Positions 62,298-64,000 of a stretch of DNA of 64,000 nucleotides are shown piece by piece. Position 1 is the first letter of the stretch. Each line of letters starts with the position of its first letter. A model generated the notes under the pieces. It made no database searches. It saw only the letters and a list, made by a program, of their open reading frames with translations, and had not been told where the DNA came from. This DNA comes from Anaerolineae bacterium (GTDB taxonomy: Bacteria; Chloroflexota; Anaerolineae; Aggregatilineales; Phototrophicaceae), in contig JAIOHM010000083.1 of the NCBI GenBank assembly GCA_019912965.1, forward strand, positions 1-64,000. Reading direction: 5' to 3'. The translations under genes and the position numbers were made by a program.

Positions 62298-62326
62298 ATC
62301 TTACATCAACCATTCAGGTTTATCAA
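62298..62326 (-). promoter_or_regulatory. tRNA-Val promoter inside the end of the HTH gene
   Basis: The minus strand shows TTGATA (62326-62321), a 17-base spacer and TAAGAT (62303-62298), close to consensus. The -10 box overlaps the TAA stop of the HTH protein gene (62303-62301) and lies nine bases before the tRNA 5' end. Confidence 0.75.
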
Positions 62327-62978
62327 TCCCTGCATATTCCTGAATTGCACCAAATACATGCTGAACGAGCTGTGTTTTTGCAACATTGACTTTGCAAACG
62401 CCATAAGGAAGCTTTCTGCCTTTTTGCTGGCTACTTCTTGGTTGTGCATTGCTTATGGTTTTTCTCAAACAACTTGGGGGGAGGGAAAGTTGATTGAGCC
62501 AATATTGTTCGATAGTGGATACATCTAGTTCTGCGTTTAGATAACAATTAATGTGAAGCGTGATTTCTTCGTCTTCAACTTGCAAAGAGTCTCGCAGGAA
62601 ACGAACGTAGAATTTCAACATATCTGAGTCCGAATTTGTCAATACAAGCGCATTTTTGCTTTTTGTTCCCTCTGCCCAATACAGCATACATCCAGCCAAA
62701 TGCAGTGGATCCATTTCGCGCGCTTTTTGACGGCCTTCTTCTTGATATTGCTGCCGTAATGCGCGATGTTTTCGGGCGACTGCCTCGCTGCCCTTGTGTT
62801 GTCCATGATAGATCGGATTGCGCCGTTTCAGGGCGAGGATTTGTTCATCAGTCAGCGGAATATCCCGCACCCACACACTAACTGAAGATTTGGCGACACC
62901 TAACTCCCGGCATATTTCTTTGACCGAATGACCTGCTCGCCGGAGTTCCCTTGCTTGTTCACGTGTTTCTTTTCGCAT
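62301..62978 (-). CDS. HTH protein with LAGLIDADG-like segment
   Basis: A 225-residue protein. An N-terminal helix-turn-helix spans about 8-40 (AGHSVKEICRELGVAKSSVS). A basic helical linker follows, then LHLAGCMLYWAEGTKSKNAL (92-111) and TNSDSDMLKFYVRFL, which resemble the LAGLIDADG homing-endonuclease helix and following strand, with Glu103 at the acidic place. I do not know an assigned function for this protein type. ATG 62978 has GAGG upstream; an upstream ATG at 63005 is less likely. It lies between tRNA-Val and the intein-bearing dcd gene. Confidence 0.65.
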   Translation of the reverse strand: MRKETREQARELRRAGHSVKEICRELGVAKSSVSVWVRDIPLTDEQILALKRRNPIYHGQHKGSEAVARKHRALRQQYQEEGRQKAREMDPLHLAGCMLYWAEGTKSKNALVLTNSDSDMLKFYVRFLRDSLQVEDEEITLHINCYLNAELDVSTIEQYWLNQLSLPPSCLRKTISNAQPRSSQQKGRKLPYGVCKVNVAKTQLVQHVFGAIQEYAGIDKPEWLM

Positions 62979-63054
62979 AAAAAGAACCTCTATCCACATA
63001 TTCACTAGAATATTGAATAAGGGTTCAGATTGTCAAGTTTGTGTCTTGTAATGG

Positions 63055-64000
63055 CTACAATTTCGGCGGAGTGACCCCTGTCTGTCCCTGATACTTCCCT
63101 TTCTTATCCGCATACGAGACTTCGCATTCCTCGTCTGCCTCAAAGAAAATCACCTGCGCGATTCCCTCATTCGCATAAATCTTCGCGGGCAGGGGAGTCG
63201 TATTGCTGATTTCCAGCGTCACGAATCCTTCCCACCCCGGCTCGAACGGCGTAATGTTGGTTATGATACCACAATTTTTGACGAAAACCCCCGCTTCTAA
63301 GGCAAAGTTTCCAGCTTCGGGGACAGTCAAGCAGTAAACGTCGTGATCTCCGGGTAGTACACGAACAGCCGATACTTTGTGATTTTTCTGCTTTTGTTGT
63401 GTTCCCTTGAAGGCATGGATGATCTCTGGAAAACGTCGAAAAACAGCTCGATCACAGTTGAGCAGTCGTGAAGCCCCGCGAATTGAACCTGTTTCATCTA
63501 ATGCTGCTCGTACAATATCTGCCGTAATTTCTTCACGAATACGCATTCTTCGTGCAATTTCGCGTTGATTTTCTCGTCTTGTTCCATCATCATTAGCCCA
63601 CGCTTGACGTGACAGTTCCCCTTTTAGCAGGCGATTGACTGGATTTTCGTAATATTCACGCATTTGCGCGCTTTTAATGGCTCGTCGCTCATCCGTCCAT
63701 GCTGCAAAATACTTTTCGATGTGCTTTATGCGTTGTTCCGCATACTTATCATCATGCCAGTAGCTAATCATTTTTTCACGCTGTGATGCAGAAAATGCTT
63801 CTCGCCATTCAGCATCCTCCTGCCACAACCGCTGGATAGCTTCGCTGATAGCTTTACCGTGTGTATCAGGGTCAAAATCTGCACCATACGTCTCGCCATT
63901 ATGATGACGTATATGTTCGCTCGCATCCATTCGGGTAATATTCCATGGATTGTTGTTGCGCCGTAGGTGGTCAATGTGGTGGCGATGTGTATTAGGCGTG
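63055..64000 (-). CDS. dcd: dCTP deaminase interrupted by an intein (5' part outside window)
   Basis: The last 72 residues (63055-63273) are the C-terminal part of dCTP deaminase: [37 protein letters not shown] (its TLE glutamate matches the catalytic Glu of the family) and [13 protein letters not shown]. Directly before them comes an intein, ending [20 protein letters not shown] then K-N|C. The frame is open without a stop to base 64000, so the N-extein and intein N-terminus lie beyond the window. An internal ATG at 63930 is not the true start. The enzyme makes dUTP from dCTP for thymidylate synthesis; activity depends on splicing. The protein is the minus-strand gene 76 bases upstream of the HTH gene. 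Confidence 0.85.
63274..64000 (-). mobile_element. Intein with HNH homing-endonuclease domain (N-terminal part outside window)
   Basis: At least 242 residues of intein are visible. At the far end lies [20 protein letters not shown] followed by [10 protein letters not shown] (about 63900-63990), an HNH nuclease motif. A basic helical part and an HTH-like [20 protein letters not shown] (NUMOD-type DNA-binding) come next. [12 protein letters not shown] and [19 protein letters not shown] match the C-terminal splicing blocks; the splice site is Asn (63276-63274) before Cys (63273-63271). The penultimate residue is Lys where His is usual. The N-terminal splicing blocks are not visible. Confidence 0.85.

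Follow-up and report, generated by a model that had tools for sequence, protein, structure and literature searches.

At the end of the window, i.e., the stretch of 64,000 nucleotides that was analysed (G000:C15:1-64000, on a contig of 91,832 bases), a single open frame of 314 codons lies on the minus strand at 63055-64000, with its 5' end open and running off the window. When the contig was read past 64000, the frame was found to be free of stops up to an ATG at 64746. The complete gene (G000:C15:63055-64746, minus strand) encodes a precursor of 563 residues, which consists of an N-extein (1-112), an intein of 379 residues (113-491) and a C-extein (492-563). The N-extein is the N-terminal part of a dCTP deaminase and ends in VGKSTYAR, the intein begins with CFRGDTRVALVDG, and the C-extein, which is the C-terminal part of the same enzyme, opens with the Cys+1 of CGIITNITP. 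The preliminary description had proposed an HNH-type intein that interrupts dCTP deaminase in frame at its catalytic segment, with the junction just ahead of CGIITNITP and after GKSTYAR. The precursor, its splicing blocks and its domain matches bear out this proposal, and both the N-extein and intein blocks A and B, which were to be looked for beyond the window, are present there. The junction directly follows the Arg of GKSTYAR, a segment whose Ser and Arg presumably have catalytic roles in dCTP deaminase. The feature is a real, complete dCTP deaminase gene (dcd) carrying an in-frame intein.

The Pfam DCD model matches the precursor in two stretches (E 5.3e-29), its profile being interrupted at position 106, and Intein_splicing (PF14890) matches between the two halves (E 3.5e-16). 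Membership in the dCTP deaminases is given by NCBIfam TIGR02274 (dCTP_deam; 142.5 bits, cut-off 92.8) together with the GKS[ST]YAR segment. The intein models TIGR01445 (intein_Nterm; 30.9 bits, cut-off 24.5) and TIGR01443 (intein_Cterm; 19.8 bits, cut-off 15.6) also match. Among solved chains, the nearest are the dCTP deaminases 4dhk (E 6e-82) and 3km3, with a weak match to the Pho RadA intein. An AlphaFold2 model of a homologous precursor (L005; alignment A2, 11 rows) was judged unusable for fold searching, with a mean pLDDT of 44.9. The coordinates of the features are collected in the table.

Table. Features of the intein-bearing dcd gene; coordinates are those of the window, continued on the contig (G000:C15) beyond 64000.
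Feature	Coordinates	Strand	Basis
dCTP deaminase C-extein, residues 492-563 and stop	63055..63273	-	Pfam and NCBIfam matches; identity to relatives
Intein, C-terminal 242 of 379 residues, within the window	63274..64000	-	Profile A1 match, 63274-64410
Intein blocks F and G, penultimate Lys and terminal Asn	63274..63345	-	TIGR01443; alignment
Conserved segment, putative DNA-binding helix-turn-helix of the endonuclease	63406..63525 (approximate)	-	By eye from the alignment; no database match
HNH endonuclease motif region, residues 251-288	63883..63996	-	phrog_7545, E 1.2e-4; motif in the alignment
Remainder of the intein, beyond the window	up to 64410	-	
N-extein, beyond the window	64411-64746	-	

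The dcd locus is an ordinary chromosomal setting. Arginyl-tRNA synthetase is the upstream neighbour, while a small helix-turn-helix (HTH) protein, tRNA-Val and a response regulator follow downstream. The downstream gene, at 62301-63005 on the minus strand, encodes an HTH protein of 234 aa with weak resolvase-type HTH matches; it was weighed as a possible partner of the intein and rejected, as in several relatives it is also found near intein-free dcd. The genome (98.64% complete, 5.17% contamination) yielded one dcd in a PF22769 search, the only one detected, and one match to the intein profile. No match to dUTPase PF00692 was obtained in this 98.6% complete genome; the same search was positive in 11 of 14 control genomes.

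The intein carries the marks of class 1. Cys113 in block A (CFRGDTRV) is the nucleophile at intein position 1, block B (IYCTPDHEF) has the Thr-x-x-His within CTPDHEF, where TIGR01445 scores above its cut-off, and the terminal Asn is followed by Cys at +1 (VKN|C). The penultimate residue is Lys. In class 1 inteins, a penultimate His is usual but not obligatory. Block F (EAGNF) is also without its usual His. In PMC5222942, class 3 inteins are defined by Trp at B:12, Cys at F:4 and Thr at G:5, with no need for an N-terminal nucleophile and usually with Ser or Thr at +1. By the block positions that we assigned, the F:4 Cys is present in the window's intein, but B:12 is Phe, G:5 is Val, the +1 residue is Cys and Cys1 is in place; class 3 was, therefore, rejected. 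The HNH motif is seen in the alignment of the family as HRHHID..NNNPWN..HIRHHN, and phrog_7545, an HNH endonuclease family, matches the intein. Pfam HNH_3 gave no match on the window's copy up to E 1; on homologues (cut-off 24.8) it scores 35.7 bits in the intein of cyanophage CL131 and stays below the cut-off in L012 (21.3) and L013 (15.6). From these motifs, the insertion in the window's dcd is assigned to class 1, as an intein whose HNH homing endonuclease looks intact and would be expected to cleave intein-free dcd.

The same junction, after residue 112 of the window's protein, is here called site b. Inteins at site b were collected from 30 distinct bacterial and four viral dcd genes (L010 and L303 are the same, and L156 and L157 were counted once). 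In many Chloroflexota they are 59-78% identical to the window's intein, the copies lacking the endonuclease being compared over the splicing part only, and the C-exteins of the other site-b dcd in this bacterial group are 69-88% identical to the window's, that of CL131 54%. Among the viral contigs is L154, with an intein that shares 51% identity with the window's in a BLAST comparison. The profile of the family also matches DnaE inteins. Ten of the 30 bacterial inteins (L014, L015, L117, L118, L270-L273, L304 and L306) measure 199-242 aa and are missing the bulk of the HNH and helical region. Of the 154 genomes searched in the order to which the window's genome belongs, 139 have a DCD match, and dcd is interrupted at site b in 10 and at site c (see below) in one, with the weak matches of G017 and G527 left uninspected and the dcd of G100 cut by a contig end. 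Within the genus, three of 17 genomes carry the site-b intein. The counts per site are lower bounds; in the wider samples, the genomes inspected, 40 of 316 matching in the phylum and 18 of 240 in the class, were picked by weak scores. Cys already occupies the +1 position of site b in 82 of 89 intein-free dcd. One intein-free dcd (L280, in G424) is split over two reading frames, a frameshift or sequencing error.

It was suggested earlier that the penultimate Lys could slow or regulate splicing. The Lys is indeed present; its unusual status is not upheld, as the position is S in 10, H in nine, K in six, R in five and Q in one of 31 of the 34 site-b inteins, and H, S and H in the remaining three (L304, L306 and L307, respectively). 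The Lys is an ordinary variant of the family. It is compatible with splicing, because the CL131 intein, also with a penultimate Lys, has been reported to self-excise in E. coli; the proposed slowing of splicing finds no support in either observation. The view that an HNH intein in dcd is less usual is likewise weakened by the published CL131 case and by HNH inteins of the same family in a putative GyrB of the order. An HNH intein in dcd is thus not new, and the same holds for the penultimate Lys.

The site-b intein can be regarded as a homing element, because it is scattered on the extein tree and because empty, full and HNH-deleted alleles occur within one genus. The tree holds 122 rows (31 with site b occupied, 89 intein-free and two with other sites occupied). 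The intein label requires at least 15 changes on it, where shuffled labels require 28 on average, and just two label changes are forced by the well-supported branches. In genus g31, the alleles of G078 and G092 are empty, that of G083 is full (376 aa) and those of G067 and G073 are deleted (199 and 211 aa); the extein proteins are nearly identical across all three states. At the nucleotide level, an empty (L093) and a deleted allele (L117) differ 13 times in the 72 positions that lie within 36 bp of the site and 24 times in the remaining 471 (p 3.6e-4); the 36-bp span had been picked after the sequences had been viewed. The other three empty-deleted pairs of the genus show the same clustering at the site (p 2e-4 to 2e-3), and the two empty alleles differ from each other at 2/72 near the site and 30/471 elsewhere. 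The full allele (L119) is more distant overall from the empty ones, and its differences from them are not clustered (12/72 and 77/471, p 0.53; 13/72 and 76/471, p 0.4). Of six informative bases in the 36 bp upstream of the site, L117 agrees with the full allele at five and with the empty one at none; of six downstream, it agrees with the full at one and with the empty at three. This pattern suggests co-conversion in the course of homing or replacement, with its direction not proven.

GC3 of the gene is 67 and 64% in the exteins and 33-45% in the intein. In the HNH region, pN is 0.14-0.18 against a saturated pS in five of six pairs, while the L013/L016 pair gives a dN/dS of 0.07, and the region looks to be under purifying selection; the putative HTH segment also has low nonsynonymous change (pN 0.07-0.15). 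Such conservation, together with the patchy distribution, the low GC3 of the intein and the same allele in phages, argues against an inactive endonuclease and an intein kept by vertical descent alone. We consider this alternative unlikely, even with the points in its favour: intein and extein identities are correlated across pairs (r 0.85), which fits much vertical descent, though in the raw identities the copies without endonuclease are represented by their splicing part alone, and these values, being an unfair test of transfer, were not used as one; most of the endonuclease part has been lost in a third of the bacterial copies; and well-supported branches force so few changes.

Two further readings concern splicing itself. 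The splicing of the intein might act as a regulatory switch for nucleotide metabolism, via the Lys or the Cys in block F. A block in splicing would matter in a genome with only one detected dcd and no detectable PF00692 dUTPase, and F:4 is Cys in 31 of 31 site-b copies. The penultimate residue nevertheless varies freely, splicing in E. coli is reported for CL131, which shares the VKN|C end, and the intein is patchy in its presence even within a genus; a switch is, on this evidence, highly improbable, and there is no indication of a regulatory role for the window's intein. Still less credit is given to an intein that no longer splices and has left a dead gene or a split enzyme. In its favour, blocks F and G are atypical; against it stand the open frame, the splicing nucleophiles and Asn, the conserved extein, the status of this dcd as the sole copy detected, and a homologue reported to splice.

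The reading that we hold with high confidence is that of a class 1 HNH intein, predicted to be self-splicing and homing, between the Arg of GKSTYAR and Cys in the only detected dcd of its genome. The precursor would splice itself through a thioester at Cys1, transfer to Cys+1 and cyclisation of Asn, and the product would be an intact dCTP deaminase of 184 aa. The HNH domain would cut intein-free dcd alleles, which would then be repaired from the intein-bearing copy, and phages with the same dcd intein allele are possible vehicles. The position in the active site would make the intein hard to lose except precisely. It is probably an active homing intein of the kind already known in dcd from phage, and it extends the published phage case to bacterial chromosomes. 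The site-b family, with empty, full and endonuclease-deleted alleles in one genus, offers a natural series for watching the homing cycle.

Site b is not the only place where dcd is interrupted. In the phylum of the window's genome, four insertion sites lie over 17 residues (in the numbering of the window's protein, a at 107|108, b after 112, d at 119|120 and c at 124|125), and five intein types can be distinguished. At site a, one kind starts with Cys and ends before Ser+1; it is complete in L013 with a LAGLIDADG_3 domain, has one in-frame stop in L035, and in L029 shows its start alone before a contig end. The other kind at site a (346 aa, starting with Ala) is found in five genomes of family f40 (L264-L268), where block B contains His-Gln-Trp, block F contains RCI and the end reads THN|S, which is the signature of class 3 as described in PMC5222942. 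Site d is occupied in L278 and L279 (VIHS|...|TAGFID) by inteins of 491 and 482 aa with Ser1 and Thr+1. The positions in L264 and L278, whose exteins belong to another dcd subfamily, were verified by extein alignment. Site c is occupied in L013, L077 and L305. Its +1 residue is Cys in all three, and none of 89 intein-free dcd has Cys there (E in 64, G in 12, S and A in five each and Q in three); therefore, the intein probably brought its own Cys codon, much as is reported for MCM-d in PMC10643990. The dcd inteins cannot be called unrelated, since weak BLAST links join them, the best being between the site-c intein and that of L264 (E 2e-8, 24.5%) and between inteins a and c of L013 (E 0.002); 'distinguishable' and 'mutually distant' are used instead. 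Viral scans with the L013 site-a and site-c inteins, which cover close relatives, found none, and a scan with the L077 precursor returned two viral dcd genes, both intein-free. Distant phage inteins of other genes match the site-a and site-c inteins at 25-29%. Thus, no close viral donor was found in these scans for sites a and c.

Three of the sites are filled at once in L013 (JAUQXC010000528.1, a metagenome-assembled genome labelled Thermoflexales BIN19). The gene (L013:1459-5403, plus strand) lies in an unbroken frame of 1,327 codons with no ambiguous base, and is the sole dcd found in its genome, which is apparently 94% complete with 5% contamination. Counted from Met, the precursor has 1,315 aa. 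The deaminase accounts for 186 of them and the inteins for the other 1,129, with 412 aa at site a, 376 at site b and 341 at site c. The extein pieces between the inteins are STYAR (5 aa) and 12 aa, i.e., the inteins are 15 and 36 bp apart. Each intein is full-length with an endonuclease-like region. Intein a is closest to DnaB, GyrA and RecA inteins (LAGLIDADG_3 80.6 bits, cut-off 22.5), and intein b is a member of the window's HNH family. Intein c is Hint-like; its LAGLIDADG_3 score of 21.4 bits falls just below the cut-off, and none of its intein matches in Pfam or NCBIfam reaches the respective threshold. By BLAST, a and b are linked at E 0.06, and b and c above 1. From the target lengths of such endonucleases, the targets of the L013 inteins at these spacings very likely overlap, so that each later arrival probably inserted into an allele that already held an intein. 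The five-residue middle extein would have to be joined by two separate splicing events. We regard it as likely that the active-site strand of dcd in this phylum is a dense target, with these four sites and five types and with three inteins together in L013. The crowded sites, and L013 above all, would allow a stringent test of mutual blocking of homing between neighbouring inteins, and L013 also of the minimal length of a spliceable extein between two inteins. Literature searches, with MacGregor 2013 and Novikova 2016 outside their coverage, returned no paper on the crowded dcd sites or a triple-intein gene.

Among known systems, the closest is ORF069 of cyanophage vB_AphaS-CL131, which ranks first of 50,697 phage records and is the sole one with a place covering at least 80% of the query. 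Its published report describes HintN and HNH_3 in a dCTP deaminase, which in E. coli gave a product of about 25 kDa on a gel, the size of the spliced enzyme; its authors ascribe this product to homing endonuclease activity (PMC6293099). What the product demonstrates is splicing. The two inteins are alike in host gene, in junction (GKSTYAR|C...KN|CG), in Hint and HNH parts and in the penultimate Lys, the CL131 intein ending in GVFVKN|C in the alignment. They differ in that ORF069 is a phage gene with 36% identity over 96% of the precursor, and in that splicing was reported there and is predicted, by homology to it, for the window's precursor. Bacterial dcd inteins are also not wholly new, because the same report cites MacGregor 2013 for 'intron-containing' dCTP deaminases in two bacteria, one of the Proteobacteria and one of the Chloroflexi (PMC6293099).

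Within the order, HNH inteins at GDSAGG|C...HN|SAKQ belong to the same family by profile A1 (best E 5.7e-57); from the flanking motif, we take the host gene to be GyrB. They differ from the window's intein in host gene, in Ser+1 and in sequence, identity over the aligned region being about 30% in most cases. These inteins were seen in L134-L143, L148, L149 and L153, with short forms of about 145-192 aa in L141, L142 and L149.

For the crowding, the nearest parallel is haloarchaeal MCM, where four intein sites are described close together in one gene, with two neighbouring inteins in one allele, mutual interference between neighbours, and a +1 residue altered on invasion at MCM-d (PMC10643990). 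The overlap of targets in L013 bears on this interference. Both genes have four nearby sites, neighbouring inteins in one allele and a +1 change at one site. As described there, however, MCM is an archaeal helicase with LAGLIDADG inteins, whereas the four sites of dcd lie within 17 residues and, unlike in MCM, one dcd gene combines three inteins that are distant from one another and represent two endonuclease families.
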